From: Acidobacteriota bacterium
GTDB lineage: Bacteria; Acidobacteriota; UBA6911; RPQK01; JAJDTT01
Length of the DNA stretch: 44,297 bases
Direction of reading: 5' to 3'
Assembly (NCBI GenBank): GCA_028874215.1
Contig: JAPPLF010000103.1
Location: forward strand, 1 to 44,297
Under the pieces are notes generated by a model. The model worked only from the letters and a program-made list of their open reading frames with translations, did not search any database and was not told where the DNA came from. Every line of letters begins with the position of its first letter. The stretch's first letter is position 1. The position numbers were made by a program, and so were the translations under genes. Shown piece after piece: positions 4,586-22,977 of the stretch.

Positions 4586-5629
4586 TTAGCGGCCCGTGTG
4601 TGGCTTGACGGCGTTCGGGTCGACGGAGGCGACGGCGAGACGTGACATCCGGGCCAGGATCTCGCGGCCGGACCGGTCGCCCGGATCGTCGCTCAGAGCG
4701 AAGGCGGAGATGACCACCGGCCCAACGGGCAACTCGACGATTCCCGAGTCGGCGGCGATCCGCCGGCTTCCTCCGTACTTGTTGGCTACGGGGATGCCTT
4801 CTCTGACGTACTTGGCAATGGTTCGTTTATGGGTGGAGGCGCGCATCAAGTCCAACATCTCGCCGGTATCTTCCCGGCTCGCCAACTCGCCGCCATACAG
4901 CTTGGCCAGAAGCGATCCGATGTCGCGGGGACCGCAGACATTGTTGTTCAGCGAATCGGAGTAACCCAAGCCATCGTCGAACTTCCCGGCGCGCATGTGT
5001 TCCAGGATCCGGGCATCGTTTTTTCGAGAGATGGGAGCGTCAGCCAGACCGACGATCAGGTAATGCCATCGGCCCAGCTCCATGGAAGCCCGGGTGTTTT
5101 TCAGTCCCAGTTCCCCCAGAAACCGGTTGACCGCCTCCAGCCCCACCTTGTGTATTACCAGGTCGGTGGCCATGTTGTCGCTGTGCACCATCATCAGACG
5201 GCAGTACTCGCGCAAGGTGAGGGAGACCGGCCCGTCGCGGCGCTTGAGGACGCCGCTGCCGTGGGTCGAAATGTCCTGGGGCAGAGTTTCCTTGGCGTCC
5301 AGGTCCAACGAGCCGGCTGCCGCCTGCCGGTAAAGTTCGATCATGACCGGCAGTTTGATCACGCTGGCCGGCGGAAAACGCTGGTCGCCGTTCCAGGAAT
5401 ACTCGGCGCCATCGGCCAGGTTTCTGGCGAAGAAGCCGATCCTCCCGCCGAACCGGTTTGCCATCGCATCCAGATCTTCTCGAGGGAATTGGGTCTTGGG
5501 AGGGTTGCCGGAGGCAATTGCCCCCAGGACCAGACCAAAGGTCAGCAGAAGAATGAATCTGGCCTTGCCGTCGGGAGAGGCGTGCTCCGGCGAGGTGGAA
5601 GAGGCTGTCTTTCCGGCTTCCCGTCTCAA
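4586..5629 (-). CDS. Class A beta-lactamase-like serine hydrolase
   Basis: A 347-residue protein with a hydrophobic N-terminal segment (about residues 24-39) and a serine beta-lactamase/transpeptidase-like fold. The active-site motifs are spaced as in class A enzymes: S89-V-I-K92 (SxxK) and S150-D151-N152 (SDN), 61 residues apart. The KTG region appears as NKYGG, so the middle residue differs from classic lactamases. Such proteins are often annotated simply as serine hydrolase, and penicillin hydrolysis, a cell-wall peptidase role or another amidase role are all possible. The only plausible start is TTG at 5629, which overlaps the TGA of the upstream DUF1501 gene in the string TTGA, indicating translational coupling. 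No ATG or GTG occurs in frame before the signal segment. Confidence 0.8.
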   Translation of the reverse strand: MRREAGKTASSTSPEHASPDGKARFILLLTFGLVLGAIASGNPPKTQFPREDLDAMANRFGGRIGFFARNLADGAEYSWNGDQRFPPASVIKLPVMIELYRQAAAGSLDLDAKETLPQDISTHGSGVLKRRDGPVSLTLREYCRLMMVHSDNMATDLVIHKVGLEAVNRFLGELGLKNTRASMELGRWHYLIVGLADAPISRKNDARILEHMRAGKFDDGLGYSDSLNNNVCGPRDIGSLLAKLYGGELASREDTGEMLDLMRASTHKRTIAKYVREGIPVANKYGGSRRIAADSGIVELPVGPVVISAFALSDDPGDRSGREILARMSRLAVASVDPNAVKPHTGR

Positions 5630-7074
5630 GCCAGGAGCTTCTCGATCACGTGGCCGCCGACATCGGTAAGGCGGAAGTCGCGGCCCTGGTAGCGGTAGGT
5701 GAGCTTGGTGTGATCGATTCCCAGCAGGTGAAGGATCGTGGCCTGGACGTCGTGGACTTCCACCTTGTCCTTGGTCACGAAGAATCCCAGGTCGTCCACT
5801 TCACCGATGGTCTGACCGGGCTTGATGCCGCCGCCGGCGAACCACATGGGGAAGTTGTCGATGTGGTGGTTGCGGCCGACACTCTCCCGGAATTCCGCCA
5901 TGGGGGTTCGTCCGAACTCGCCGCCCCAGATGACCAGCGTGTCCTCCAACAGGCCGCGCTGCTTGAGATCGGTGATGAGGGCGGCGGAGGGACGATCGGT
6001 CTCCATCGACACCTCGTCGATCCTCTCGCTCAGGTTCCCGTGATGGTCCCAGCCGGTGTGGTAGAGCTGGACGAAACGGACGCCCCGCTCGATCATGCGG
6101 CGGGCCAGCAGGCAGTTGGTGGCGTACGACGGTTCGCCCGGCGTCACTCCATAGAGGTCCAGGGTGGCCTGGCTTTCGCTGCTCAGGTCCATCAGCTCGG
6201 GGCCGCTGGTCTGCATGCGGAAGGCCATCTCGTAGGAGGCGATCCGGGTGGCGATTTCCGGGTCGCCGTATTCCTTCTCATGCATCCGGTTCAGATCCTG
6301 GATGGCGGCCAGCTTTGCCCCCTGACGCTGGATCGAGACACCCTTGGGACTGGCCAGATTGGGAATCGGAACGGCCGAGCGCAGGAACTCGACGCCCTGG
6401 TATGCCGTGGGCAGAAATCCGCTGCTCCACATGAAGGCGCCGCCCATCAGGTCCGCCTCCCCCGATCGGAGGACCACGAATCCGGGGAGATCCTTCGACT
6501 CGCTGCCCAGTCCGTAACCCACCCAGGAGCCCATGCTGGGCAGTCCGAAGCGGGTCGATCCGGAGTTGCAGAAGAGCTTGGCGGGAGCATGATTGAAGTT
6601 TTCGGTCACGACCGATTGGACCAGGGCCACGTCGTCCACGACCTTGGCCATCTGGGGGAACACTTCCGAAACCCAGGTGCCCGACTGTCCGTGCTGGGCG
6701 AATTTCCGTTTTGGACCGAGCAGTTTGGGCTTCACCTTGGTGAAACGTTCCATGAACGCGAAGCGCTTGCCCTCCAGGATGGAATCGGGTGCGGTCTGGC
6801 CGTTCAACCGGGCCAGTTCCGGCCGGTAGAGCCAGGTCTCGAACTGACTCGGCCCGCCGGCCATGAAGAGGTAGATCACCCGTTTGACCTTGGGTTCGTA
6901 GTGGGGTTGCCGGAGGGCGAGGGGGTTCCTGGCGCGGCTGTCGCCGGCGGCGAACATTTTGCCGTCGCTCAACAACTGGCCCAAGGCAACGTTGGCCAGA
7001 CCGACGAAGCACCGGTCGAAGAAATGGCGCCGTGTCTGACCGATAAGCTGGAGCCCGTAATTCGTCATTTCCAT
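5626..7074 (-). CDS. DUF1501 domain-containing protein
   Basis: A 482-residue member of the DUF1501 family, related to sulfatase/alkaline-phosphatase-fold proteins. It starts at ATG 7074 behind an AGGAAGG ribosome site. The N-terminus (QTRRHFFDRC) resembles a twin-arginine motif but lacks a strong hydrophobic stretch. Family landmarks are YLFMAGGPSQFETW near residue 70, IWGGEFGRTPM and GRNHHIDNFPMWFAGGG near residues 380-415, and the C-terminal VQATILHLLGIDH. DUF1501 genes nearly always sit next to PSD1/DUF1553 genes, and here the PSD1 gene ends 28 bp upstream. The pair is abundant in Planctomycetota, Verrucomicrobiota and some Acidobacteriota and is linked by association to polysaccharide or sulfated-glycan use. 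The biochemical role is not established. Confidence 0.9.
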   Translation of the reverse strand: MEMTNYGLQLIGQTRRHFFDRCFVGLANVALGQLLSDGKMFAAGDSRARNPLALRQPHYEPKVKRVIYLFMAGGPSQFETWLYRPELARLNGQTAPDSILEGKRFAFMERFTKVKPKLLGPKRKFAQHGQSGTWVSEVFPQMAKVVDDVALVQSVVTENFNHAPAKLFCNSGSTRFGLPSMGSWVGYGLGSESKDLPGFVVLRSGEADLMGGAFMWSSGFLPTAYQGVEFLRSAVPIPNLASPKGVSIQRQGAKLAAIQDLNRMHEKEYGDPEIATRIASYEMAFRMQTSGPELMDLSSESQATLDLYGVTPGEPSYATNCLLARRMIERGVRFVQLYHTGWDHHGNLSERIDEVSMETDRPSAALITDLKQRGLLEDTLVIWGGEFGRTPMAEFRESVGRNHHIDNFPMWFAGGGIKPGQTIGEVDDLGFFVTKDKVEVHDVQATILHLLGIDHTKLTYRYQGRDFRLTDVGGHVIEKLLA

Positions 7075-7102
7075 CCCGACCTTCCTCTTGGGCCTCGGCC
7101 TG

Positions 7103-9670
7103 TCATTCCCGGGTGAAAAACTCGTCTACGTTGAGCAGCACGCTGGCCGCCATGTACCAGACCGCCTCCTCCTGGCCCTTCTTTCCGTCCGGCATGGCAA
7201 GGCTCAGAATCTCTTCCGTCTCCGCCGGATCGGCGCCAAACTCCTGGCGCTGGGTGGTCAACAGGCGCTCCAGCCGGGCTTTCTCCTGGGGCCGGGGCGT
7301 CCGGGTCAGGCAGATTCTGAAGAGATGGTCGAGGCGTTCCGAGTCCGTGCCGTCCGGAAGCTCTCTGAGCACTCTGTAGGCCAGGCCTTGGGCGAACTCG
7401 TGAAATCCTTCGTCGTTCAGAAGCGTCAGGGCCTGCAACGGCGTCGTCGACCGGTTTCGGCGGGTGACCGTCAACATGGCGTCCGGGCTGTCGAAGACGG
7501 CCAGAGCCGGGTGGGGACTGAGTCGCCAGTAGTAGGTGTACAGTCCTCGCCGATACCGGTCCTGCCCCTTGCTTTCCGGCCATCGCTCATGGCTCCCGTC
7601 GGGCCTGGCGCCATTCTTGATGATGACCCAGGGGGGTTGCGGCGGGTACACGCTCGGCCCGCCGATCTTCGGCGCCAGGAGGCCGCTCGCCGACAACGCC
7701 AGGTCGCGAATCACTTCCGACTCGACGCGCAGCCGGTTCTGCCGCGCCAGCAGGCGGTTGCGGGGGTCCTCCTGCCTGAGATCGGGGCGGTGCCGGGACG
7801 ATTGCCGATAGGTGGCCGAGGTGGCAATGAGGCGATGGATGGCCTTCAGGCTCCAGTCCTGAGCCACGAACTCCGAGGCCAGCCAGTCCAGGAGCCGGGC
7901 GTGGGAGGGAGGGGTGCCCTGGGTTCCGAAATCGTTGCTGGTCTCGACGATTCCAGTACCGAAATACCGCTGCCAGATCCGGTTGACGGTGACCCGCGGC
8001 GTCAGGGGATTCTTCTCGTCCACGAGCCAGTGGCCCAGGTCCAGGCGAGTGTAATTCTCACGTTCGGGCAACGGCGGCAGCACGGCCAGGGTTCCGGGCC
8101 AGACCTGAATCCCCTTCTGCAGGAAATCGCCTCCCAGCAGTACGTGGGTCGGACGGGGTTCGGGCAACTCCCGCATGACCAACGTGCTGGGGATGTCGGG
8201 CTTCAGCTCCCCGACGGTTGCCAGCGCTTTCGTTCGTTCCTGATGTCCCGCATCCTGCCGGAAATAGGCGCGCCGCGTGTACCTCTGCTGCTCCGGATGG
8301 CGTTCCGCGATGGGAATCTTCAGAGCGGCCAGATGGCCCGGGGTCAGCTTGGCTCGGGCTTCTTCGTCCAGGTTGGCCTCCCACTCCTCCTGCCTGGAAA
8401 CCAACAGTTCCTCGTACTTCTCGTTTTCCTCCCGCATCGCCTTGAGCTGGGCCTGGATGGCATCACGCCGCGCAAATTGTTCGGGGGTGCCGAACTCCAT
8501 GATCGGCTCGTAGGCGCGGGCGCGTCCGGCTTGGTTCTTGTACTCGCCGCTCAACTCGTCGATGTTGTTGAAGAAGGAGAAGAACCGGTAGAACTCCCGT
8601 TGGGAGACGGGGTCGTACTTGTGGTCGTGGCAGCGGGCGCAGCCCAGGGTCAGACCCAGAAAGACGACGCCCGTGGTATGCACCCGGTCGACCACCGCCT
8701 CGACGCGGTACTGTTCGAAGTCGATGCCCCCCTCCAGATTCAACTGGGTGTTGCGGTGAAATCCCGTGGCGATGACCTGGTCCCGGGTGGGCTCGGGCAT
8801 CAGGTCGCCGGCGATCTGCTCGATCACGAACTCGTCGTAGGGAAGATCGCGGTTCAGGGCCTCGATCACCCAGTCCCGGTATTTCCAGATCTTGCGGGGC
8901 AGGTCGTTGTTGTAGCCGTCCGAGTCGGCGTAGCGGGCCAGATCGAGCCAATGGCGTCCCCAGCGCTCGCCGTAGTGCGGCGACCCCAGCAATCCGTCGA
9001 TGAGCCGTTCATAGGCGTCCGAGCGCGTATCTTCCAGAAATGCGTCCACCTCCTCGGGGCGGGGCAACAGTCCGACCAGGTCCAGATAGGCCCGGCGGAT
9101 CAGGGTGGCCTTCTCCGCTTCCGGCGATGGTTTCAAACCTTGCTGATCGAGGCGGGCGAGGATGAAGCGGTCGATGGGATTGCGCACCCAGCCGGCGTCG
9201 GACACTGCCGGTTCCGCGGGACGCCGGATGGGCTGGAACGCCCAGTGTTTCGACGGGTCCTCCATGGCCCTGGCCCGGTCCGGCGCCGGGTCGGGCCAGG
9301 GAAGCCCCATCCGGATCCAACGGACCAGCGCCGAAACCTCCTGATCGGCCAGCGCCTCCCCTGGAGGCATCTTCAAATCGCCCTGCCGCCTGATGGCGTG
9401 GACGAGAAGGCTCTCCCCGGGCAGGCCCTCGGCCACGGCTTCGCCCCGGTTTCCACCCTTGAGGAGCCCCTCCCGGCTGTCGGTGGAGAGGCCGCTGGTG
9501 GGCAGCTTGTCGTTGTGACAGCCGGAACACTTGTTCCGCAGGACCGGACGGATCCGGTTTTCGAAGAATTGGATCTGGTCCGCGGAAAACCGCGCCGTCT
9601 CCGCCGCGGCGAGCAGATGGAAACAACTGCAAGCAGTGAGGATCAAGACTGTTAGGAGAAGGCGAACCAT
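7103..9670 (-). CDS. PSD1 and planctomycete cytochrome C domain protein (DUF1549/DUF1553)
   Basis: An 855-residue secreted protein. A signal peptide (MVRLLLTVLILTACSCFHLL) is followed by a heme-binding CxxCH motif, C48-S-G-C51-H52, in the PSCyt1 domain. The large DUF1549 (PSCyt2) region follows, with a second CARCHDHKYDP motif that could bind heme or metal. The C-terminal DUF1553 (PSD1) region contains NRIWQRYFGTGIVET and RRNRSTTPLQALTLLND, both typical. Length is normal for the family. It is first in a tight minus-strand operon: PSD1, 28-bp gap, DUF1501, 4-bp overlap, serine hydrolase. A c-type cytochrome role in the periplasm is likely. The electron donor and substrate are unknown. Confidence 0.92.
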   Translation of the reverse strand: MVRLLLTVLILTACSCFHLLAAAETARFSADQIQFFENRIRPVLRNKCSGCHNDKLPTSGLSTDSREGLLKGGNRGEAVAEGLPGESLLVHAIRRQGDLKMPPGEALADQEVSALVRWIRMGLPWPDPAPDRARAMEDPSKHWAFQPIRRPAEPAVSDAGWVRNPIDRFILARLDQQGLKPSPEAEKATLIRRAYLDLVGLLPRPEEVDAFLEDTRSDAYERLIDGLLGSPHYGERWGRHWLDLARYADSDGYNNDLPRKIWKYRDWVIEALNRDLPYDEFVIEQIAGDLMPEPTRDQVIATGFHRNTQLNLEGGIDFEQYRVEAVVDRVHTTGVVFLGLTLGCARCHDHKYDPVSQREFYRFFSFFNNIDELSGEYKNQAGRARAYEPIMEFGTPEQFARRDAIQAQLKAMREENEKYEELLVSRQEEWEANLDEEARAKLTPGHLAALKIPIAERHPEQQRYTRRAYFRQDAGHQERTKALATVGELKPDIPSTLVMRELPEPRPTHVLLGGDFLQKGIQVWPGTLAVLPPLPERENYTRLDLGHWLVDEKNPLTPRVTVNRIWQRYFGTGIVETSNDFGTQGTPPSHARLLDWLASEFVAQDWSLKAIHRLIATSATYRQSSRHRPDLRQEDPRNRLLARQNRLRVESEVIRDLALSASGLLAPKIGGPSVYPPQPPWVIIKNGARPDGSHERWPESKGQDRYRRGLYTYYWRLSPHPALAVFDSPDAMLTVTRRNRSTTPLQALTLLNDEGFHEFAQGLAYRVLRELPDGTDSERLDHLFRICLTRTPRPQEKARLERLLTTQRQEFGADPAETEEILSLAMPDGKKGQEEAVWYMAASVLLNVDEFFTRE

Positions 9671-9783: not shown

Positions 9784-11004
9784 TCATCTTTCGTAACCCG
9801 CGAAATCAATCGGTGTCTCGACCAGCCACTTGTGCAGGAACCGCTGCCAGGCCGGATCGATGTGGGGTCCGTTGGCCGAGTGTCCGTCCGGCGTGGGCAC
9901 GTATTCGTATCGTTCCCGGACTCCGAGAAATTCGTAGACTTCCGCCGCCCGGTTGCAGTAACCCTCGTTGTGCAGGTCGGCCATGCGCCCGCCGATGAGC
10001 ATGAAGGCCCGGGGTGCGCACATGGCCATCAGTTCGTGGTGATTGCGCTCGAGTCCGGGCCGACCCACATCGGGGTTCAGCAGGCTCAGGACGGTGCCGC
10101 GCAGGTCGTGTATTGGGTAATCGTGCGTGCGGATGCCTGGGAACCGTTTCAGCCAGTCCAGGTACCAGTGTTTGAACCAGTTGGTCCTGCCGTTGAGGGC
10201 GACTCCCGGATCGAAAGAGACCGTCGCCTTGATCTCGGGGACGAGGGCGGCGGCGTAGATGGCCGCCTTGGCGCTCAGGGAGAATCCCATGAAACCGATC
10301 CGGTCCGCGTCCACCTCCGGCAGGGAACTCAGGTATTCCACCTCCCGAGAGACGTCGTGGACCATCTTGCCCATGGGCAGCCAGTGTCCGAATCGGGAAT
10401 AGAGTGTCTCGTGCACCCCGTTGCGAAAGCTCCGGCCCTCCCGGTACTTCTTGATGAAGGATTGGCTGGTCAGGACCACGAAGCCGCGGCGCGCCAGGTA
10501 GCTGCCCCACCATTGCTCTGGCGCATCGTAGTCGGAACTGGTGGCCGCCCAGGCGATGACGGCCGGAAACGGACCGGATCCCTGGTTCGTGGGCATCAGC
10601 AAGAGGTGGTCCTGGTAGAAATCGACCTCCATGGCAAGTCCCAGGTGGATCCTTGTATAGCCGTCACGCTCCTGGCGACTGTAAACCTGGGTCTTCGTGA
10701 TGTCCCCGAACCAGCGGCGGTCCTCCGGTGCGGGACTCAGCTTGCCCAGAATCCGTGTCCAGACCCGAACCAGCTCGGGTCGCCGGAGCACGTCCCAATC
10801 CTCCGCTGACTCGATCTTCCGTCCGTCTTCAGAAACCAGAGCCGAGGGGATCTCCATCAGGTGCTGCCCTGGTTGCGGGGAGGGCCCTCGAACCCAAGGG
10901 TGGTACGTGAGCCTTCCCAGGTTTCCGGTCTCCCCCGGCGCCAGCGAAGTCAGAATGAATCCCAACAGGCCCGCGAGGACCGATTTCCTAAATTTCCGTC
11001 TCAC
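9784..11004 (-). CDS. Secreted alpha/beta hydrolase (dienelactone-hydrolase/acetylxylan-esterase-like)
   Basis: A 406-residue alpha/beta hydrolase. The frame is open further upstream, but GTG at 11004 is the best start: it follows a GAGGGG ribosome site and begins a proper signal peptide (RRKFRKSVLAGLLGFILTSLAPG). The nucleophile elbow is G-F-S242-L-S, with Ser in place of the usual final Gly. A later LIGGRMADLHNEGY segment and DGHSANGPH near the C-terminus supply the probable acid and His. The overall layout (VHDVSREVEYLSSLPEVDADRIGFMGFS) matches secreted carbohydrate-esterase-like or dienelactone-hydrolase-like proteins. Its neighbourhood of glycan enzymes fits an esterase acting on plant or algal polymers, but this is inference. 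Confidence 0.82.
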   Translation of the reverse strand: MRRKFRKSVLAGLLGFILTSLAPGETGNLGRLTYHPWVRGPSPQPGQHLMEIPSALVSEDGRKIESAEDWDVLRRPELVRVWTRILGKLSPAPEDRRWFGDITKTQVYSRQERDGYTRIHLGLAMEVDFYQDHLLLMPTNQGSGPFPAVIAWAATSSDYDAPEQWWGSYLARRGFVVLTSQSFIKKYREGRSFRNGVHETLYSRFGHWLPMGKMVHDVSREVEYLSSLPEVDADRIGFMGFSLSAKAAIYAAALVPEIKATVSFDPGVALNGRTNWFKHWYLDWLKRFPGIRTHDYPIHDLRGTVLSLLNPDVGRPGLERNHHELMAMCAPRAFMLIGGRMADLHNEGYCNRAAEVYEFLGVRERYEYVPTPDGHSANGPHIDPAWQRFLHKWLVETPIDFAGYER

Positions 11005-12061: not shown

Positions 12062-13843
12062 CTACCGACGGTGTTCCCCTGGTTCTTCCCCTTTCTTTCC
12101 TCTTTCCACCTTCCTTCTCCCCCCGCCGGCAAGAATCTCCAGCGCCAGGGAGCGGAACTCCTTCATCCTTCTCGTCCACAACTCCTTCAATCGGCGCACC
12201 TTGCCCGGATGCTCCGAGGCCAGATCGGTGGTTTCGGTGCGGTCGGCTTCCAGGTCGTAGAGTTCCCACGGCCCTTCCGGACCTTCCGAAACCAGCTTCC
12301 AGCGACCGGACCGCACCGCCCGGTTCTTCTCGTGGTACCACCAGAGATGGTCGCGAGCGACTGCGCCATCTTTGGCGAAAACGGGAAGAAGGCTCTTTCC
12401 GGGAAGGGGAGGAGCCGCAACCGGTTCGCCGTTCGAGTTCCGCCAGTCCGATAGTCCGACCATCTCCAGGACAGTGGGGACGAAGTCGATGACATGGCCC
12501 ACATTGTGGCGGAGTTCGTTGCGGGAAGAGATGCCGCGGGGCCAGTGCACGATCATCGGCGTGGCGATGCCGCCCTCGTGGACCCACATCTTGTGGCGCC
12601 GGAAGGGGGTGTTGGCGACGGTCGACCCACCCGGACCCAGGCACAGGAAGGTGCCGGCCGAGCCCGGTTCCGCATCCGGGTCGTGGCCGTCGCTGCGGAC
12701 GATGAGCTCGCAACTGGCGCCGTTGTCCGAGAGGAAGAGGATCAACGTGTCCTCGAAGGCGCCCATGCGGCGAAGTTGATCCAGGACCCGCCCGATCTCC
12801 CGGTCCATGCTGTGGATCATGGCGGCATGGATGGCCATCTTCGCCGCTTGAAACTCGCGCTGCTCCAGGGTCAGCCGGCTCCAGGGAAGCGGCCGGTCCA
12901 CCTCGCCCGGTCCCAGCGCCTCCAGGGTTCCGGGGAATTCCCGGATCGGCCCCACGCCGGGTTCCATTTCGGGCAGCCGGCCGGAGACGATGCCCATTTC
13001 CCGGATCCGCCGCCACCGGTCCAGGCGAATTTCAGCCCAGTCGCGCCGGTACCGGTCGCGGTAGCGGGAGATGTCCCCGGGCAGGGCGTGGAGTGGGAAA
13101 TGGGGTGCGGTGAATGCCAGGTAGTGGAAGAAGGGCCGGCCGCCGAATTCGGCCGCATGTTGCCTGAGGGTCCGGATGGCGTGATCGGCAATGGCGGTGG
13201 TGGCGTAGTAGCCGCTGCCGGGCTCGATGGGCGGCAGTTCCCGATCGTCCTCCCAGTGGACCTGCGGATTGAAGAACCGTCCCTGGTCCCGCAGGTAGTA
13301 GGAGCGATGAAATCCGTTGGCCACGGGCATCCCGTCGATGTGCCACTTGCCCGAGTGGTAGGAGCGGTACCCGAGCGGCCGGAGCATATCGGGAAGCAGG
13401 CGGGCCCAATCCGGACGTTCGCCCCTTCCGCCGGGGACACCGGGCAATTTATCCCGTCCCACCTGCTGGGCATAGTAACCGGTGAGCAGCGCGGCGCGGG
13501 TGGGCCAGCACCTCGCCGTGTTGTAGAACTGGGTGAAGCGGAGGCCGCCTCGGGCCAATCCGTCCAGGTTCGGCGTCTCGATCTCGCCCCCGTAGCACCC
13601 GAGATCGGAAAATCCCAGGTCATCGGCCAGGATGACCATGATGTTGGGACGGTTGGGCTCTGTCAGGACAAGGAACAGTATCGTGCATAAAGCACAAAAT
13701 GGCAGAAAAGCACCAAGCACCAAATTCCAAACGGCATGCGGCCGCCCGGGTACAAAACGCCGGGGGTGTGTCTCGGTGTCACGGGGATTGGATTCAGAGA
13801 ATTCAGATTTCATCCGGGCGTCGACGTGAGGACTCCTCGGCAT
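12062..13843 (-). CDS. Type I sulfatase (arylsulfatase family)
   Basis: A 593-residue sulfatase of the S1 class. The metal-binding front is NIMVILADDLGFSDLGCYGG (D74, D75), and the formylglycine site is C112-W-P-T-R116 within ARCWPTRAALLTG, so it carries the CxPxR core needed for Cys-to-formylglycine conversion. Further family motifs are KWHIDG (the G.WH block), FLSDNGAS and the C-terminal WKLVSEGPEG. A hydrophobic segment at residues 40-60 acts as signal or anchor. ATG at residue 11 is an alternative start. The final 20 residues are basic and low-complexity and lie over a repeat region. The gene faces away from the propeller-protein cluster starting at 13956, which suggests a shared divergent control region and removal of sulfate from a glycan handled by that cluster. 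The substrate cannot be read from sequence. Confidence 0.93.
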   Translation of the reverse strand: MPRSPHVDARMKSEFSESNPRDTETHPRRFVPGRPHAVWNLVLGAFLPFCALCTILFLVLTEPNRPNIMVILADDLGFSDLGCYGGEIETPNLDGLARGGLRFTQFYNTARCWPTRAALLTGYYAQQVGRDKLPGVPGGRGERPDWARLLPDMLRPLGYRSYHSGKWHIDGMPVANGFHRSYYLRDQGRFFNPQVHWEDDRELPPIEPGSGYYATTAIADHAIRTLRQHAAEFGGRPFFHYLAFTAPHFPLHALPGDISRYRDRYRRDWAEIRLDRWRRIREMGIVSGRLPEMEPGVGPIREFPGTLEALGPGEVDRPLPWSRLTLEQREFQAAKMAIHAAMIHSMDREIGRVLDQLRRMGAFEDTLILFLSDNGASCELIVRSDGHDPDAEPGSAGTFLCLGPGGSTVANTPFRRHKMWVHEGGIATPMIVHWPRGISSRNELRHNVGHVIDFVPTVLEMVGLSDWRNSNGEPVAAPPLPGKSLLPVFAKDGAVARDHLWWYHEKNRAVRSGRWKLVSEGPEGPWELYDLEADRTETTDLASEHPGKVRRLKELWTRRMKEFRSLALEILAGGGRRKVERGKKGEEPGEHRR

Positions 13844-13955
13844 TGTCCGATTTCCTCGTGGATGCTTGAATTTGATCGTACGTTACACTGTCGGTACTGA
13901 CAACGACTGCGGCACGGGGTTAGTCCGGATCTGCCCCAATCATTCCAGGTCAACG

Positions 13956-15527
13956 ATGGTTTCACCTATGGAAAACAGACTCGACCGGCGGCGGCGCTGG
14001 ACCAGATCCCGCAGAGACTTCTTGAGAATCTCCTCACTCGGGTTAGGGTCGCTGCCGTTGATTCAACCGGCACGGATTATGGCGTCCGGCGCCCGCCGGT
14101 CGTCTCCGCAAGTGCGCGAGATCGGGTCGCGGCTCGAGCTGTTCGTGGACGACTGGCTGATCGAGACCATGAAGGGGGTGGATCTGAAGCTGCACCGTCC
14201 CGTCCCCCGGGAGGTGGTCCTCGAGTTCGATCGTCCCTGGGAGGGCTCCCTGAGTTACGCCCCGGTCTACATGAAGGAGGGAGACCGCTACCGGCTCTGG
14301 TACCGGGGAGGCGGCGTATGGGACGGGATCCGGGCTGATCGGCGCCCGGAGCCGTGCACCTGCTATGCCGAGAGCCGCGACGGCATCCATTGGGAGAGGC
14401 CGGTCCTGGGGATCCACGAAACCCGGGGCATCCGCGGATTCGAGCCCTCCAGAGACAACAACATCGTGATCCACGGAAGCACCGCCCAGCACGTCTGTGT
14501 CTTCAAGGACAGCAACCCGGCGGCGCCCGAGCACGAACGCTACAAGGCCATCGGCCTCTCGTCCGGGTTCGACCCGCCGGGGACGCTCCGCGGCCTGGTC
14601 TCGCCGGACGGACTTCACTGGACGGTGCTGGACAGGGACCCCATCCTCACCGCCACCGGCGACGACCACTGGCCCCATTTCGACTCCCACAACACAGCCT
14701 TGTGGGATCCCAATCTCGGGCAGTACGTGGCCTACATGCGGGGAATGGACCCGCGGTTCGGAGTCTTCGAGACCTACCCGCCCGGAATCCGCTCCATCCG
14801 GCGCAGCGTTTCTACCGACTTCAGAACCTGGTCCAAGCCGCAGTTCATCGAGTTGGGCGATGCTCCCGTCGAGCATCTCTACATGAACGCTTGCGACCTG
14901 TACTACCGGGCGCCCCACCTCTACCTCATGTTTCCCAAGCGCTTCTTCCCGAAACGCAAGGTCCGCCAAGACTGGACAGCGAGCGGGATTTCCGAGAGCG
15001 TGTTCATGACCAGCCGCGACGGCATCCACTGGGACCGGCGTTTCATGGAGGCGTTCCTGCGCCCCGGGCCCGACCCGGACAACTGGACCGACCGGAACAT
15101 GTACAAGGGGGTCGGCATCGTGCCCACCGGTCCGGCGGAGATGTCCATCTACTACGTCGAGCACTATCGGCACCCCTCGGTCCGGCTGCGGAGGGGGACT
15201 CTCCGCATTGACGGATTCGTGTCGGTGAACGGAGGCTATTCCGGCGGGGAGCTCCTGACGCGGCCCCTTGTTTTCCAGGGCAGGGAGTTGGCCCTGAACT
15301 ACGCCACTTCGGCGGCGGGCAGTCTGCGGGTGGAGGTTCAGGACGGTCAGGGAAAGCCCGTAGACGGCTTTGGGCTGGCCGACTGCGGGGAACTCGTGGG
15401 GGACGAGATCGAACGGGTCGTCGCCTGGCGGCCTGGACGCGATTTGAGTTCGTTGTCGGGGACGCCCGTCCGGCTGCGGTTCGCCGTGAAAGACGCGGAC
15501 CTGTATTCCATTCGGTTCCGGACCTGA
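13956..15527 (+). CDS. Tat-exported five-bladed propeller protein (GH43/GH32-like), paralog 1
   Basis: A 523-residue protein starting at ATG 13956 (AGGT seven bases upstream); ATG 13968 is a close alternative, and the frame is open upstream to 13866. A Tat signal (RSRRDFLRISSLGLGSLPL) precedes a five-bladed beta-propeller of the kind seen in GH32/43/117/130-related proteins. Blade motifs of the type S-x-D-G-x-x-W recur: SRDGIHWERP, SPDGLHWTVL, STDFRTWSKP and SRDGIHWDRR. Conserved acidic candidates for catalysis are VDDW (64-67), ERYKA and VEHLY. The last 110 residues form a beta-rich module ending DADLYSIRF. The same architecture is repeated at 17302 and 20664. It is the first gene of a plus-strand run and is divergent from the sulfatase. 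The enzymatic function is inferred from fold only. Confidence 0.75.
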   Translation: MVSPMENRLDRRRRWTRSRRDFLRISSLGLGSLPLIQPARIMASGARRSSPQVREIGSRLELFVDDWLIETMKGVDLKLHRPVPREVVLEFDRPWEGSLSYAPVYMKEGDRYRLWYRGGGVWDGIRADRRPEPCTCYAESRDGIHWERPVLGIHETRGIRGFEPSRDNNIVIHGSTAQHVCVFKDSNPAAPEHERYKAIGLSSGFDPPGTLRGLVSPDGLHWTVLDRDPILTATGDDHWPHFDSHNTALWDPNLGQYVAYMRGMDPRFGVFETYPPGIRSIRRSVSTDFRTWSKPQFIELGDAPVEHLYMNACDLYYRAPHLYLMFPKRFFPKRKVRQDWTASGISESVFMTSRDGIHWDRRFMEAFLRPGPDPDNWTDRNMYKGVGIVPTGPAEMSIYYVEHYRHPSVRLRRGTLRIDGFVSVNGGYSGGELLTRPLVFQGRELALNYATSAAGSLRVEVQDGQGKPVDGFGLADCGELVGDEIERVVAWRPGRDLSSLSGTPVRLRFAVKDADLYSIRFRT

Positions 15528-15552
15528 CGCCGGCACGGGCTGGGAGGGAAAG

Positions 15553-17292
15553 ATGAGACTGCATCGCTGGTTGACGCTCCTTTTCGGTGTCATGTTCGCA
15601 ACCGTCGCCTGCTCTCCCCAGGGAGGAGGCGAAGGCGGCGGCGCCGAAGGGACGGTCTTCCCCAAGGACCGGAAGCGGCGGATCCTCTACTACGACGCCG
15701 CCTCGCAGGAAACCTGGGGTTACATCGACCAGGGCCGCAAGATCCCATACACGAAGCTGATCGCCGACATCACCGACCATCAGGCCTTCCTCGACGCCCG
15801 CACCAACATGACCTTCGGCACCCAGGTGGACACCTACGTCTTCCACGTCGGCAATGGCGCGGACCCTCCCTACAACACCTCGACGGAGATGCTCTGGCCC
15901 TGTTTCAGTTCCTACGAGGAGGTGCGGGACCTGGTCATCGAAGCCTGCCACGCCCGCGGAATGGAGGTGTGGGCCTCCCTGAGGATGAACGATCTGCACG
16001 CATCCTGGCGGTCCGTCTCCCTCCATGACCTGGACGATCCCTTCAAGATCGAGCATCCGGAGTTCCTGCTGGCCCCTGAAAGCAGTCGGCACCTGGCCTC
16101 CGAACTGACCGAACACATGCTGTGGTCTGGGTTCAACTTCGTCCATCCGGAGGTCCGGCAACACCGGCTGGACTTCATCGAGCGGACCGCCGCCGCCCAT
16201 GATTTCGACGGCTACGAGCTGGACTTCAACCGCATGGGCATCAGTTTCCCGCTGGGACAGGAGCGGCAAAACGCGCACCTGTTGACCGAAATGATGCGCG
16301 AGGCGCGGCAGCGGCTGGATACCGTGGGGGAGCGGCGGGGACGTCCCTACACCCTGGCCGTCCATGTCGTGGACTCCCTGGAACGGTCGCAGGAGCTGGG
16401 CATGGAGGTCGATGTGTGGGTCCGGGAGGGGCTGGTGGACGTGCTGCTTGTGGGCATGGGCCACCTCCCCAGCCGGCTGCGGCTGGACCAGTTCCTGAGT
16501 CTGGGGCGGGCCCACGGGGTTCCCGTCTACGCCACCCTCAACGGCAACTCCTATCGGGCCGGGGCCTGGGAGGGGCTCTACGGTCGGCCGGTGTTTCGGG
16601 AAGGCATGCGGGCCAGCGCCGCCTATTACCACCAGGAGGGTGCGGACGGCATCTATCTGTTCAACTACGCCAACGAGCCGACCCAGGAACTGACCCGGGA
16701 GGAGTTCGTCTCGGCCCTCAGCGAACTGGGGGAGGCCCAGACTCTGGCGGGCAAGAACAAGGTCTATGGCATCCACTCCACGGCCCACACCGGAGGACCC
16801 ATCATCCAGGGGTCCGAGTCGGCCCTCCTGCCCGTGGTCCTGGATCGGGTGGAGACCAAGCTGCCGCTGCTGATGGGACCGGACGCCGACGATGAGAACG
16901 CCCGCTTCCGCATCAGCCTCTGGACGGCCGACAGTCGAGAGGACACCCGCATCTGGGTCCGGCTGAACCACACCCTGCTTGCCGCGCCGACCCGGGAGGA
17001 GCCCTGGTATCACCTGGACGTTCCCGCCAGGATCATGCGCAGCGGCAACAACGAGTTGGGCATCATATCGGACGTTCCGGCGGGAGGACCGTTCCCCGGG
17101 ATCGTGGCTCCACCCGGCGTCAAGCGAAAGGACTGGCTGGGTTGGAAACGGAACGAGGGGACCCTGGTGGACGAGTTCGCGGAGGGTCGATTGGTTCGGG
17201 ACCCGGATACGGCAGGTAGAGACGGACCCGACAAGAGGCGTCCGGTGATCGTGCACCAGATTTTCGTGACCGTGGAATATCCGAATCGGTAG
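15553..17292 (+). CDS. TIM-barrel glycoside-hydrolase-like lipoprotein
   Basis: A 579-residue protein with a lipobox signal (FGVMFATVAC, Cys20), so it is likely anchored in a membrane. Residues 35-390 look like a TIM barrel of the GHL10/family-10-glycosylhydrolase-like superfamily. Strand-end motifs include GMEVWASLRMNDLH, FDGYELDFNR (D219, E222 and D224 as candidate acids) and ADGIYLFNYANEP. Residues beyond 400 form a beta-sandwich-like extension carrying a further region of Asp-rich strands. It starts 25 bp after paralog 1 and 9 bp before paralog 2, so all belong to one transcript. I cannot match it to a named family. Hydrolase activity on a polysaccharide is the likeliest role. Confidence 0.65.
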   Translation: MRLHRWLTLLFGVMFATVACSPQGGGEGGGAEGTVFPKDRKRRILYYDAASQETWGYIDQGRKIPYTKLIADITDHQAFLDARTNMTFGTQVDTYVFHVGNGADPPYNTSTEMLWPCFSSYEEVRDLVIEACHARGMEVWASLRMNDLHASWRSVSLHDLDDPFKIEHPEFLLAPESSRHLASELTEHMLWSGFNFVHPEVRQHRLDFIERTAAAHDFDGYELDFNRMGISFPLGQERQNAHLLTEMMREARQRLDTVGERRGRPYTLAVHVVDSLERSQELGMEVDVWVREGLVDVLLVGMGHLPSRLRLDQFLSLGRAHGVPVYATLNGNSYRAGAWEGLYGRPVFREGMRASAAYYHQEGADGIYLFNYANEPTQELTREEFVSALSELGEAQTLAGKNKVYGIHSTAHTGGPIIQGSESALLPVVLDRVETKLPLLMGPDADDENARFRISLWTADSREDTRIWVRLNHTLLAAPTREEPWYHLDVPARIMRSGNNELGIISDVPAGGPFPGIVAPPGVKRKDWLGWKRNEGTLVDEFAEGRLVRDPDTAGRDGPDKRRPVIVHQIFVTVEYPNR

Positions 17293-17301
17293 GGGGGAAT
17301 C

Positions 17302-18927
17302 ATGCGCGCCCTCGGACGAATTCCGCTGTTTGGGCTGGGGATCCTGTTCTGCCTCGTCTCCACCGCCGGATCGGCCCTGGGTCAGGCGGAGACCCGGATC
17401 AAGGAACCACCGGGCCGCTTCGACGGGACGGGGCACATCGTCACCGGCGACAAGCTCTCCGCTTCCAAGTACGTGAAGGGGACCTCCATCGAGGGCTCTT
17501 GGGCGGTGTTGCCGACTCCGCCTCTCGAGATCGGGAACCGGCGCCAGTTGCTCATGGACGGCTACGTCGTCGAGGACCTGGCCGGCTGCCGCAGGGTGGT
17601 CCATCGGCCGCGGCGGCACCCGGACAACCCCCTCATCACCGGCGGCGCCTCACCGGACCACAGGCAGACCCACGTGGTGAGCACTCCCAGTGTCGTCTAC
17701 GACCGGGAGCGGGGCCTCTACCGCATGTGGGCCAACGGCTACCGGATGTATCGCACCGCAGGCCAACACTTCGGACTCTATTTCGAGTCGCGGGACGGAT
17801 TGACCTGGACGGCGCCCGACCTGAAGCTGCACCGGATCGAGGGTCTTTCGGCTCCCAACATCTTCTTCACCCAGCCGGGACGGAGCGCCTCCATCGCGGT
17901 CACCGAGTTGCCCGCCGAATGGCGCCGCAAGGGGCGCTATCTGCTGGCTTACCACAGCGGAGAACTGGGACGGAACCCCGCCACCCTGCAGATGCCCGGC
18001 GGAGGAATGGAGGTCCGGATCGCCCTGAGCGAAGACGGCATCCACTTCCGGGACCAGGAGGAGAACCCCATCTTCCGGGGCCAGAGCGACTGTGAGAACC
18101 AGATTCTCTACAACCCGGAGCGGAAGGTCTTCATGCTCTACCGGAGGCCGCCCATCAATGCCAGCCGAATCCGGAAGATCGCCTATTCGGAAAGCTCCGA
18201 TCTCGTCAACTGGACCCAACCCGCCGTGATCCTCAGGCCCGACGAACTGGACCCCTCCTCGTTCTATGGAATGACGGTGGCGCGCTACGAAGGGCTCTAC
18301 CTGGGATTTCTGGAGAATTTCTACTACAAGCAGCCGTTCGACGTGGAATCCAAGCCGGCCAAGCACATGCAGATCGACATCCAGTTGGCCTGGAGCCGGA
18401 ATGGCATCCACTGGGAGCGCCATCCGGCCCGTCCTCTCTTCCTGGAGACGGGACCCGCCGGCACCTACGACTGGGGCATGGTCTTTCCGCCGGTGGGCCT
18501 GATCCAGCGGGAGGACCGGCTCGACTTCTACTACGTGGGGCGCGAGCAGCTCCATGTCCGCATGCCGGGCAACTCGCACATCTGCCTGGCCACCCTGCGC
18601 AGGGACGGCTTCGTCTCCATCGAGGCGCCCCAGGAGGGGTTTCTCCTGACCCGGCCCCTCAAGCACCCGGGCGGACGGTTGCACATCAACGCGAAAACTT
18701 CCGCCACCGGCTCCATCCGGGTGGCCGTCCGGAGTGGAGACGGCGAACTGGACGGGCAATGGCTGCCGGAGTGGGACTACGACCGGTCCCGCACCTTCAC
18801 CGGCGATTCCACCGACCACGTCATGGTCTGGAATGAAATGGAGGACCTGGAATCACTCAGTGGAAAGAGTATCCGCCTCCAATTCTGGCTGCGAGAAGCT
18901 CATCTCTTCTCGTTCTGGTTCGAGTAG
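17302..18927 (+). CDS. Secreted five-bladed propeller protein, paralog 2
   Basis: A 541-residue protein with a Sec signal (LGILFCLVSTAGSALGQ). It is the most divergent of the three related proteins: the N-terminal block is IGNRRQLLMDGYVVEDLAGC rather than VDDWLIE. The blade motifs SRDGLTWTAP, SEDGIHFRDQ, SSDLVNWTQP and SRNGIHWERH are kept, as is the C-terminal module (RRDGFVSIEAP, TSATGSIRVAV, HLFSFWF). Compared with its paralogs it has a 50-residue N-terminal extension rich in Lys and Ser. It sits 9 bp after the lipoprotein gene and 15 bp before the Asp-box gene. The divergence suggests a different sugar or linkage. Function is inferred from fold. Confidence 0.7.
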   Translation: MRALGRIPLFGLGILFCLVSTAGSALGQAETRIKEPPGRFDGTGHIVTGDKLSASKYVKGTSIEGSWAVLPTPPLEIGNRRQLLMDGYVVEDLAGCRRVVHRPRRHPDNPLITGGASPDHRQTHVVSTPSVVYDRERGLYRMWANGYRMYRTAGQHFGLYFESRDGLTWTAPDLKLHRIEGLSAPNIFFTQPGRSASIAVTELPAEWRRKGRYLLAYHSGELGRNPATLQMPGGGMEVRIALSEDGIHFRDQEENPIFRGQSDCENQILYNPERKVFMLYRRPPINASRIRKIAYSESSDLVNWTQPAVILRPDELDPSSFYGMTVARYEGLYLGFLENFYYKQPFDVESKPAKHMQIDIQLAWSRNGIHWERHPARPLFLETGPAGTYDWGMVFPPVGLIQREDRLDFYYVGREQLHVRMPGNSHICLATLRRDGFVSIEAPQEGFLLTRPLKHPGGRLHINAKTSATGSIRVAVRSGDGELDGQWLPEWDYDRSRTFTGDSTDHVMVWNEMEDLESLSGKSIRLQFWLREAHLFSFWFE

Positions 18928-18942
18928 GAGGGGAAACCCCAA

Positions 18943-20667
18943 ATGAAAAGAGTGAACCTGAACCGACGCCGTTTCCTCAGCCGGACCCTGGGCGCCGGCG
19001 TCCTCGCCTCTGTCGCCCCGGCTCTTCACGGAGCCGCGTTGTCCGCACCGTCCCCCAGCCGCCGCAGCCGAATGCGCTCCCTCGACGCCGTTGCCGACCG
19101 GCAAGTCACGGTCTGGCGGCCCCAGGGGCGCTTCACCAAGAACCCCGACCTGATCCGGTTTCCCGGCGGGAAGCTGATGCTGGTCTACAACGACTGCGAC
19201 GCCCACTGGCCGCAGGAGACGACCCGGCTCACGACCCTCGAAAGCCATGACAATGGAAAGACCTGGGGGACTCCCCGGGTCGTCTCGGAGGCGGACCCTC
19301 GAAAGGGCGAGGAGCGCTGGGTGACCCCGCGGATCAGCCGCCTCAGCGACGGGCGGCTGGTCATCATCTGCGACCAGAACGACTTCAGCCACATCCACGA
19401 GGACCAGCCCCCCGGGATCTGGAGCTGGTTCAGTTCGGACGAGGGGCGGACTTGGAGCGTGCCCCGGCTGACAGGGGTTCCCGGTTTCGAGCCGGACCGG
19501 ATCGTGGAGCTGCCGGACGGAACCCTGCTCATGGCCTCCCAGATCTTCTTCAAGGCCACGCGCAAGATCGGCGTCCTGGTCATGCGCTCCACCGACGGCG
19601 GGATGACCTGGAAGGACCGGAGCATCGTCGCGGCCGACACGGTCCACCATCATTCGGAAGCCGCCATCGTGGTCCTTTCCGACGGCTCCCTCGCCTGTGT
19701 GCTGAGGGAGAGCAACCATCACGGCTATCCCTCGTACCTCTGCTTCTCCAACGACGGGGGCCGGAACTGGAGCCGGCCCGAACCCATGCCCTTCGCGGGA
19801 GACCGTCCCTACGCCAAGCAACTGCCCGACGGACGGGTCCTGGTCACCTACCGGAACCGGTCGGGGAACCGGGGCACCCACGCCTGGATCGGAGACCTGC
19901 GCCGCAATCCCGGATTCCAGCCGGGCGGAGTCCACTACCACGACCGGGTAAAGCTCGAATCGGGGGAACTGCGCGTCGATGACGTTCCCGGCGGCGTGAC
20001 CCAGTACATTCTTCTTCCTCCCGAGAACTTCCGGAGCGACCTGTTTCTGGAAGCGGTGCTTCGAGTCGAGGGACCAACGGATCAGCCCGTCGCCTCCTTG
20101 GAGATCGGCCGTCTGGAACGGAGGCTGGACGTCTGCAGCAACGGCCTCCGGCTCTACGCGCCCAAGCGGGACCTGGGACCCGACCGGGCCAGCGGCGGCC
20201 GCATCGACCTGAAGCACGAACTGGACATGACGAAGCCGAGAAACGTCCGGCTCAACGCCTGGAAGGGCCTGTTCACCGTCCAGGTCGACGGCAAGGTGGT
20301 CATGAGCCGGGCTCTCTACAACGACTTTCCGCTGCTGGAGACGTGGTTCGGACGGGCGGAGAACGGCAAAGGAACGAGTTGGTGGAGCCGCGCCGCCTAC
20401 CAGGTCAGCAACGACACCGAGCCGCATCACCAGTGGGAGTGGCGGGCCGACAGCGGCGAGCATCCCGACCAGTACCAGTTGGACCACATGCTGGAGCTCC
20501 ACGCCAATACGCCTTCCGCCACCCACCGGCCCGACAACGGATACTCCTCCTGGGTGGAGCTGGAGGACGGACGGATTTTCATGGTGGACTACAGCAACCG
20601 GGGCGACCCCCGGACCAAGGCCCATCTCTACGGGGTGTATTTCTCACCCGGGGACTTCCTCACATGA
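18943..20667 (+). CDS. Tat-exported Asp-box propeller protein (exo-alpha-sialidase-like)
   Basis: A 574-residue protein starting with a twin-arginine signal (NRRRFLSRTLGAGVLASVAPAL). The propeller carries four clear Asp-box motifs (S-x-D-x-G-x-T/N-W) near residues 101 (SHDNGKTWG), 164 (SSDEGRTWS), 216 (STDGGMTWK) and 269 (SNDGGRNWS), and an N-terminal FTKNPDLIRFPGG block typical of sialidase-family (BNR) proteins. A second beta-rich region, about residues 340-480, resembles a LamG-type sugar-binding or structural insert (TVQVDGKVVMSR). The final part (GYSSWVELEDGRIFMVDYSNRG) returns to propeller-like sequence, so the LamG-like part may be inserted in the last blade. It overlaps the next gene by ATGA. 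Sialidase activity is possible but not shown, because the arginine triad cannot be assigned with confidence. Confidence 0.75.
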   Translation: MKRVNLNRRRFLSRTLGAGVLASVAPALHGAALSAPSPSRRSRMRSLDAVADRQVTVWRPQGRFTKNPDLIRFPGGKLMLVYNDCDAHWPQETTRLTTLESHDNGKTWGTPRVVSEADPRKGEERWVTPRISRLSDGRLVIICDQNDFSHIHEDQPPGIWSWFSSDEGRTWSVPRLTGVPGFEPDRIVELPDGTLLMASQIFFKATRKIGVLVMRSTDGGMTWKDRSIVAADTVHHHSEAAIVVLSDGSLACVLRESNHHGYPSYLCFSNDGGRNWSRPEPMPFAGDRPYAKQLPDGRVLVTYRNRSGNRGTHAWIGDLRRNPGFQPGGVHYHDRVKLESGELRVDDVPGGVTQYILLPPENFRSDLFLEAVLRVEGPTDQPVASLEIGRLERRLDVCSNGLRLYAPKRDLGPDRASGGRIDLKHELDMTKPRNVRLNAWKGLFTVQVDGKVVMSRALYNDFPLLETWFGRAENGKGTSWWSRAAYQVSNDTEPHHQWEWRADSGEHPDQYQLDHMLELHANTPSATHRPDNGYSSWVELEDGRIFMVDYSNRGDPRTKAHLYGVYFSPGDFLT

Positions 20668-22199
20668 CCTCGCGTCCGGCACGGGGCTGGTTGTTGGCCG
20701 CCGGCCTGCTCTTCTGCGGGCTGTTTTCGACGGGCTTCCCGGCTCCCTCCGAAGTGCGGGAAGTGGGAAGCGAGCTCCAGCCTCTCTGGGACGACTGGCT
20801 GATCGAAAGCCTGGAGAACGTCCGGCATGTTCTTCACCGGCCGGAGCCGCGGGAGGTCGTTCTGCGGCGCGACCGTCCCTGGGAGGACCACGCCATCTAC
20901 AATCCGGTGGTCATCAAGGACGGATACCGGTACCGGATGTGGTATCGGGCCCGGGCGGTGGAGAAACCGATCCTGACCGCCTACGCCGAGAGTCTGGACG
21001 GGATCCATTGGGTGAAGCCCAAGCTGGGCCTCATCGAGCACGACGGGTCGAGGGAGAACAATCTCGTCTGGCCGGTGCCCGGGGGCATCGGCCGGTCCGT
21101 CTCCGTCGTCAAGGACGGAAACCCCGAGGCGGACCCTCAGGAGCGCTACAAGGCCATCACCAACCAGGGGACCAAGCTGCCTTCGGGCCGGGAGATCGCC
21201 TTGCTGTACGGCCTGGTCTCCCCCGACGGCCTGCGCTGGCGCATGGTCCGGCAGGGACCCATCGTCGTGCCGCCGCTGGGAGACGGGGCCTTCGATTCCC
21301 ACAACATCATTCTGTGGGACGAAGCCCGGGGGCGCTATTCCATCTACGCCCGGGGCTGGTACCGCCGCGGAAGCAGGCCGCTGGACGGAAAGACGGTGGG
21401 CAGGGGACCCTACCATGTCCTGATCGGGCGCCCCTCGGGAGTGGTCGAGAAAATCAGCCGGATCCGGGACATCCGCCGTTTCACTTCAAAGGACTTCCGG
21501 AACTGGTCCGAGCCCGAGTACATCGGTCTCGGCGAGACGCCGCTGGAGCACCTCTACAAGAACTCGGCCGTGCCCTACTATCGGCGTCCCGACCTGATCC
21601 TCATGTTCCCGAAACGGTATCACCCCACCCGGAAGTTTCACGCCGACTGGCCGGCGCCCGGACAGTCGGAGGTGGTTTTCATGTTCAGCCGGGACGGCGT
21701 GAATTTCGACCGGCGCTTCATGGAGGCGTTCCTCCGGCCCGGCCCGAACCCCTTGAACTGGCATGAACGGGCCATCCAGGTGGGCCCGACGCTGGTCCCC
21801 ACGGCACCGGGCGAGATGTCTCTGTACTACGCCGAGCAGGGCAAGACGGACCAGGTCCGGATCCGCCGCGCGGTACTTCGTGAGGATGGATTCGTGTCCC
21901 TTCGCGCTCACTACCCGGGAGGTGCCGTTCGAACCCGGCCCTTCGTGTTCTCCGGGTCGAGGCTGTTCCTCAACTACTCGACCTCCGCAGCCGGAAGCAT
22001 CCGGGTGGAGATCCAGGATGAGGCGGGCAATCCGTTCCCAGGCTACTCCCTTGAGGATTGCCCGGAGATCTACGGGGACGAAATCGAACGGGAGGTGAAG
22101 TGGCGGGCCGTTTCCAGCGTCGAGAGCCTCGCGGGTCGTTCGGTCCGTCTCATGATCTCCATGAGAGACGCCGACCTTTACTCCCTTCGTTTCCGGTAG
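20664..22199 (+). CDS. Secreted five-bladed propeller protein, paralog 3
   Basis: A 511-residue protein starting at ATG 20664, which overlaps the TGA of the upstream gene (ATGA). The frame is open upstream but a normal signal peptide (RGWLLAAGLLFCGLFSTGFPAP) begins here. It aligns along its length with paralog 1: VGSELQPLWDDWLIESLENV against IGSRLELFVDDWLIETMKGV, then SLDGIHWVKP, SPDGLRWRMV, SKDFRNWSEP, SRDGVNFDRR, TPLEHLYKNS and the tail DADLYSLRFR. Paralogs 1 and 3 are clearly closer to each other than to paralog 2. It is the last gene of the cluster and is followed by hairpins at 22203-22261. Likely a glycan-active or glycan-binding propeller; substrate unknown. Confidence 0.72.
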   Translation: MTSRPARGWLLAAGLLFCGLFSTGFPAPSEVREVGSELQPLWDDWLIESLENVRHVLHRPEPREVVLRRDRPWEDHAIYNPVVIKDGYRYRMWYRARAVEKPILTAYAESLDGIHWVKPKLGLIEHDGSRENNLVWPVPGGIGRSVSVVKDGNPEADPQERYKAITNQGTKLPSGREIALLYGLVSPDGLRWRMVRQGPIVVPPLGDGAFDSHNIILWDEARGRYSIYARGWYRRGSRPLDGKTVGRGPYHVLIGRPSGVVEKISRIRDIRRFTSKDFRNWSEPEYIGLGETPLEHLYKNSAVPYYRRPDLILMFPKRYHPTRKFHADWPAPGQSEVVFMFSRDGVNFDRRFMEAFLRPGPNPLNWHERAIQVGPTLVPTAPGEMSLYYAEQGKTDQVRIRRAVLREDGFVSLRAHYPGGAVRTRPFVFSGSRLFLNYSTSAAGSIRVEIQDEAGNPFPGYSLEDCPEIYGDEIEREVKWRAVSSVESLAGRSVRLMISMRDADLYSLRFR

Positions 22200-22576: not shown

Positions 22577-22977
22577 ACCTGTTCGTGGATACGAGTGTCT
22601 GGTCTATTGCACTCAGGCGTGATTCGCCGCCGGACGTTTCCGAGGTGCGGCGCCTCCGGGAGGCACTCGTCGGGGGCACGGTCTACACGACCGGACTCGT
22701 GCTTCAGGAATTGTTGCAGGGTTTCCACGGTCCGCGCGCCCGGACACAGCTCATCGACCGCTTCTCGGCCATGGCCATGATCGTCCCGACGCGCGGTGAT
22801 CACATCTCCGCGGCCCGCCTGCGCAACGAATGCCGTCGCAACGGCATACAGGTCGGAACCATCGATGCGCTGCTCGCACAGCTCTGCATCAGCCACAAGC
22901 TCGTCATGTTGTCGACCGACCGGGATTTCATTCATATCGCAGAGTACACGCCACTCCGGCTGTGGAGGGCGGACTAA
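22573..22977 (+). CDS. vapC: VapC-family PIN-domain ribonuclease toxin
   Basis: A 134-residue PIN-domain protein starting at GTG 22573, which overlaps the antitoxin stop. The frame is open upstream, but MNLFVDTSVW is the canonical start. All metal-binding acids of the family are present: D6 (FVDTS), E46 (LQELLQG), D98 (TIDAL) and D116/D118 (STDRDF). VapC enzymes cleave specific structured RNAs, often tRNA or rRNA, with Mg2+ or Mn2+ when released from VapB. The full motif set suggests an active toxin. Confidence 0.92.
   Translation: MNLFVDTSVWSIALRRDSPPDVSEVRRLREALVGGTVYTTGLVLQELLQGFHGPRARTQLIDRFSAMAMIVPTRGDHISAARLRNECRRNGIQVGTIDALLAQLCISHKLVMLSTDRDFIHIAEYTPLRLWRAD

Follow-up and report, generated by a model that had tools for sequence, protein, structure and literature searches.

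A syntenic exported gene cluster of an Acidobacteriota bacterium joins GH156-like and sialidase-fold proteins to members of a multi-copy propeller family

The window analysed here is the whole of contig JAPPLF010000103.1 (44,297 nucleotides), which belongs to the genome of an uncultured Acidobacteriota bacterium (5.7 Mb, 97.5% complete). Five intact open reading frames run in one direction on its forward strand, at positions 13956-15527 (P0001), 15553-17292 (P0002), 17302-18927 (P0003), 18943-20667 (P0004) and 20664-22199 (P0005); the gaps between them are 25, 9, 15 and -4 bp, so the close packing described in the initial annotation is borne out. P0001, P0003 and P0005 are members of one propeller family (paralogs 1, 2 and 3, respectively), P0002 is a TIM-barrel protein and P0004 is a BNR/Asp-box protein. 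As the initial annotation had recognized, paralogs 1 and 3 are close (50% identity) and paralog 2 is distant (27% identity to each). Export signals, read by eye, are of the Tat type in P0001 and P0004 and of the Sec type in P0003 and P0005; P0002 carries a lipobox. The cluster is real and is under purifying selection: dN/dS relative to congeners is 0.10-0.24 across the five genes (paralog 3 of congener G003 being cut by a contig end). A sulfatase gene, P0006, lies at 12062-13843 on the reverse strand and is transcribed away from the cluster; the junction between the two (13844-13955), initially put at about 110 bp, measures 112 bp.

None of P0001, P0003 and P0005 matched a Pfam or NCBIfam model above its cut-off; P0003, for example, reached 21.5 bits against an NCBIfam GH130 model for which the cut-off is 450. 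When 75 members of the family were searched, Pfam returned one weak GH32N match (E=0.0034) and the best NCBIfam result was again a GH130 model (E=6.8e-8). A search of the PDB with P0001 as a single sequence found nothing. The AlphaFold2 model of P0001 (75-sequence input; pLDDT 89.6) shows a five-bladed propeller of the kind typical of GH130, GH32, GH43, GH117 and GH137, followed by a C-terminal β-sandwich. The solved structures closest to this model are BT_0996 (GH137) and members of GH130, GH43 and GH117, together with a GalNAc deacetylase, all with Z scores of 21-25 and identities of 10-17%. Because the Z scores are too even among GH137, GH130, GH43 and GH117, we assigned the propellers to no family. 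P0001 resembles these four families and GH32 in its five-bladed fold, in a conserved aspartate (Asp65) at the start of the propeller and in further acidic residues; it differs in its low identity, in reaching none of the family models, and in the conserved C-terminal β-sandwich. Judged by the Pfam and NCBIfam models and by fold, the propellers are an undescribed family, with no clear home in GH137, GH130, GH43 or GH117.

Some of these matches bear on the chemistry: instead of being hydrolases, the propellers might act as phosphorylases or deacylases, like the GH130 enzymes or the F. plautii GalNAc deacetylase, which share their fold class. Profile matches to GH130 structure 7fip (E=1e-8) and to the deacetylase 6n1a (E=8e-7), Z scores of 24.6 and 22.8, respectively, and weak matches of 12 of the 75 members to a β-1,2-mannobiose phosphorylase model are consistent with this idea. 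However, the GH130 match is confined to profile positions 74-127, and an exported location would make phosphorolysis unlikely. We regard this alternative as very improbable.

Acidic residues are retained in the propellers, which upholds the initial annotation on this point. Across the 75 members, which come from many phyla, Asp218 is present in all, Asp65 and Arg279 in 74 each, Asp243 in 70 and Glu306 in 57. Among 105 near-full-length paralogs from the window's own genome, Asp65 is kept in 98, Asp218 in 104, Asp243 in 72 and Glu306 in 29. Both P0001 and P0005 carry Asp65, Asp243 and Glu306; P0003 has the two aspartates without Glu306. The initial annotation had proposed the motifs VDDW, ERYKA and EHLY as catalytic. 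Of these, only the first Asp of VDDW and the EHLY motif show good conservation across phyla; ERYKA was rejected as a catalytic motif, its Glu194 being a glutamate in 35/75 members across phyla and in 22/105 paralogs of this genome. By these alignments, Asp65, Asp243 and Glu306 are better catalytic candidates.

The initial annotation correctly described a propeller family of a secreted cluster, with no known activity, and missed that the three genes are part of a set of about 113 loci in this genome (after merging of pieces; 118-119 open reading frames if fragments are included). Each of three congeners has at least 40 members, and first-look candidates number 159-200 per congener versus 175 in this genome. 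In 33 counted genomes of other phyla, between 1 and 34 copies were found (E≤1e-20, with at most 49 candidates scored), and few others among 396 Acidobacteriota genomes hold true members. A tree of 210 sequences places the propellers of this genome in several genus-only groups, the largest of 43 sequences (41 of them from this genome), and in many smaller groups that are mixed with other phyla. The family therefore expanded within the lineage and also comprises several older lineages; the three paralogs of the window fall into three separate groups of this tree. We found no published description of this expansion in the literature searched. Most of the genes stand alone (76 of 90 places in the genome), and operon-like conserved surroundings were rejected as a general property of the family: the neighbours are mixed, with 104/187 on the same strand. 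One explanation for these features is that the propellers are mainly proteins for glycan binding or surface display, not enzymes, and are so numerous because the glycans to be recognized, of a host or of the community, are varied. The rarity of Glu306 among the paralogs of this genome and the abundance of single genes point in that direction; the near-invariance of Asp65, Asp218 and Arg279 across phyla, and the fact that the fold matches of P0001 are nearly all enzymes, argue against it. We consider a mainly binding role to be rather unlikely.

P0002 has no Pfam match. It can instead be compared with EnvSia156 (PDB: 6rzd), the founding member of GH156: a phmmer search gave E=5e-29, and the GH156 family profile matches P0002 across its whole TIM barrel (E=1.5e-75). 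Arg144, Asp147, His149, Arg227 and Asn371 of P0002 correspond to Arg129, Asp132, His134, Arg202 and Asn346 of EnvSia156, in which Arg129, Arg202 and Asn346 form the carboxylate triad and His134 is the acid catalyst (PMC6811678). A candidate counterpart of the catalytic base Asp14 is Asp48, one residue off in the alignment. P0002 further differs from EnvSia156 in being a lipoprotein, in having His271 in place of Arg246, and in its many paralogs, which number about 20 or more in each genome. By sequence, P0002 is clearly related to this exosialidase, and exosialidase activity is predicted. The initial annotation's 'TIM-barrel lipoprotein' was right as to fold and missed this identity.

This genome has more than 20 GH156-like genes, and each of the four species of the genus, this one included, has about 20 or more (with at most 23 candidates scored); outside the genus, one gene each was found in 3/56 other genomes. 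Two of these three carriers, G022 and G035, also hold propellers (hand-computed hypergeometric P of about 0.011). Both expansions, that of the propellers and that of the GH156-like genes, occur in every congeneric species sampled, four in total, and are absent from most other Acidobacteriota. Elsewhere in the window's genome, GH156-like genes adjoin propellers at C31, C108 and C16.

P0004 matches BNR_2 (E=6.7e-23). Its model has a pLDDT of 57.7 overall, the propeller part being better; in a Foldseek search the top match was the Dfer_1899 structure (PDB: 5hx0), and sialidases occupy almost the entire top list. Although this model is of low confidence, we assign P0004 the fold of GH33 sialidases, with which it shares the six-bladed Asp-box class; the earlier 'Asp-box propeller' call thus holds for the fold and had not extended to GH33. 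P0004 departs from these sialidases in a long insert that precedes the last blade and in the first Arg of the sialidase triad, which was not seen where the motif normally places it (the sequence at position 65 is TKNPDL). Of the residues expected in a GH33 active site (an arginine triad, a Tyr/Glu nucleophile pair and an Asp), Glu239, Arg255, Arg304 and Arg306 are possible partners.

The neighbourhood is conserved: the order GH156-like gene, paralog 2, BNR gene and paralog 3 is kept in four of four congeneric species. This genome and G002 have an intact paralog 1; in G001 and in G003 it has become a pseudogene. Its remnants correspond to residues ~104-174 and ~419-523 in G001, and to residues ~103-195 and ~501-523 in G003; they have large internal deletions and lie at L055 11159-11665 and L056 5048-5353. 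Directly upstream of the cluster, both G002 and G003 encode a TonB-dependent receptor of the Oar-like type (PF25183 and PF13620), with an additional gene beyond it; the next feature is the sulfatase in G002 and, in G003, the contig end, which is reached before any sulfatase. The 529-residue product of the additional gene (G002, L119 4274-5860) had no Pfam or PDB match. Both the receptor and this gene are missing from the locus here and in G001. G003, to which most genes are closest when compared by dS, has both, and this makes their loss the simplest reading. A 61-bp block at 13809-13869 is 80% similar to part of the interior of the additional gene, as expected of a deletion remnant. The 112-bp junction is therefore best read as the site of a deletion, and the short divergent region is probably a derived state; it thus offers no evidence for a functional pair of sulfatase and cluster.

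These comparisons bear on the proposal of the initial annotation that the sulfatase works with the five genes, in a self-contained locus for a sulfated or otherwise decorated glycan. P0006 is intact, with a strong PF00884 match (E=8.6e-50) and a kept formylglycine motif of CxPxR type (CWPTR), and it adjoins the cluster both here and in G001. On the other hand, it is about 5.7 kb from the cluster in G002, where the receptor and the additional gene intervene. Proximity to propellers was scored genome-wide for three families at three distances, with P values left uncorrected for that number of trials. Enrichment is modest for sulfatases, 10/27 of which have a propeller within 5 kb (4.7 expected, P=0.012; not significant at 10 kb), and for GH156-like genes, 8/26 of which have one within 3 kb (3.2 expected, P=0.010). 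For TonB receptors it is not significant: 11/42 have a propeller within 5 kb, against an expectation of 7.3. Among the direct neighbours of propeller genes that were scanned, 2/118 are sulfatases. We rejected the sulfatase as a fixed partner, and P0006 is probably a neighbour and not part of the functional unit; a sulfated-glycan locus is improbable. Nor is the description as self-contained supported, in view of the receptor beside the cluster in G002 and G003 and the decay of paralog 1 in G001 and G003.

Like the SusC/SusD loci of Bacteroidota, this cluster groups exported glycan enzymes, and in G002 and G003 a TonB receptor stands beside it. It differs in that there is no SusD and in that the receptor is Oar-like (PF25183 with CarboxypepD_reg) and absent from the locus here. 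The initial annotation had already observed that a SusC/SusD pair is missing: the single SusD match in the genome is on another contig. Genome-wide, there are about 42 Oar-like receptors (PF25183).

The data establish homology, predicted folds, residue conservation, synteny, purifying selection and copy numbers; activity, substrate and host are inferences. On balance we favour, by a modest measure, an exported glycan-trimming enzyme set: the sialidase-type proteins would trim terminal nonulosonic acids and the propellers would cut further linkages. Most likely, P0002 would cleave off a nonulosonic acid at the glycan terminus, sialic acid or a similar sugar, with inversion through a His/Asp mechanism, and P0004 would act on, or bind, the same kind of terminus. 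P0001 and P0005 are predicted to hydrolyse neighbouring linkages, most likely through Asp65, Asp243 and Glu306; P0003, which lacks Glu306, may be a variant form or may serve in binding. The roughly 113 propeller copies would supply a wide set of specificities, and import would probably have proceeded through an Oar-type receptor of the kind still adjacent to the cluster in two congeners. Several observations weigh against glycan trimming: the offset of Asp14 in P0002, the P0004 triad without its first Arg at the usual motif, the mostly singleton propellers with mixed neighbours, and the poor retention of Glu306 in this genome. Furthermore, NanE was not found in the genome and NanA matches were below cut-off, which makes the standard catabolic pathway improbable for any Neu5Ac that is set free: the sugar may be something other than Neu5Ac, may be taken off to expose what lies beneath, or may be used by another route.

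As a glycan locus, the cluster is of a general kind that is already known; what is new is the undescribed family of propellers, how large it has become, and the fact that GH156-like genes have expanded along with it. A more far-reaching proposal, which we advance tentatively and hold to be possible more than probable, is that the propellers constitute a new family of glycoside hydrolases, spread over many phyla and multiplied to about 113 copies in this genome, which, with the expanded GH156-like set, attacks a nonulosonic-acid-bearing host glycan unexplained by existing families. Because the propellers are widespread and exported, have a confidently predicted fold and conserved acidic residues, and match no family model, they are a direct target for the discovery of new enzyme activity, and the joint expansion suggests a first substrate class: sialosides, Kdn and nonulosonates related to them, with or without sulfation. 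It is unusual for a single genome to hold about 113 paralogs, and such a set allows the evolution of specificity to be tested. As for the host, a sponge habitat of the genus is suggested solely by the record names COS4 and APA, which look like codes given to samples of Coscinoderma and Aplysina. In symbionts of sponges (these two among those studied), GH33, a sialidase family, is reported to be enriched, as are glycoside hydrolases in some Acidobacteriota (PMC8163846). If the genus does dwell in sponges, our findings bear on how a symbiont feeds on, or remodels, its host's matrix.

The flanks of the locus contain several other genes. At 5626-9646, a DUF1501 protein adjoins a PSCyt1/PSCyt2/PSD1 protein, a pairing typical of Planctomycetota, and at 9784-10857, close to the sulfatase, there is an α/β hydrolase with a glucuronyl-esterase-like match (PF22244). 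Downstream of the cluster, the start of a short open reading frame (22645-22977) resembles a PIN-type toxin; G002 has an AbrB-like small open reading frame downstream of its own cluster (L119 18811-19035), and the two may represent a toxin-antitoxin module. At the contig end, the open reading frame at 43051-44199 begins with HCDGNGLYLYVRPNGARSWI, which looks like a tyrosine-recombinase integrase and may mark the boundary of a mobile element.
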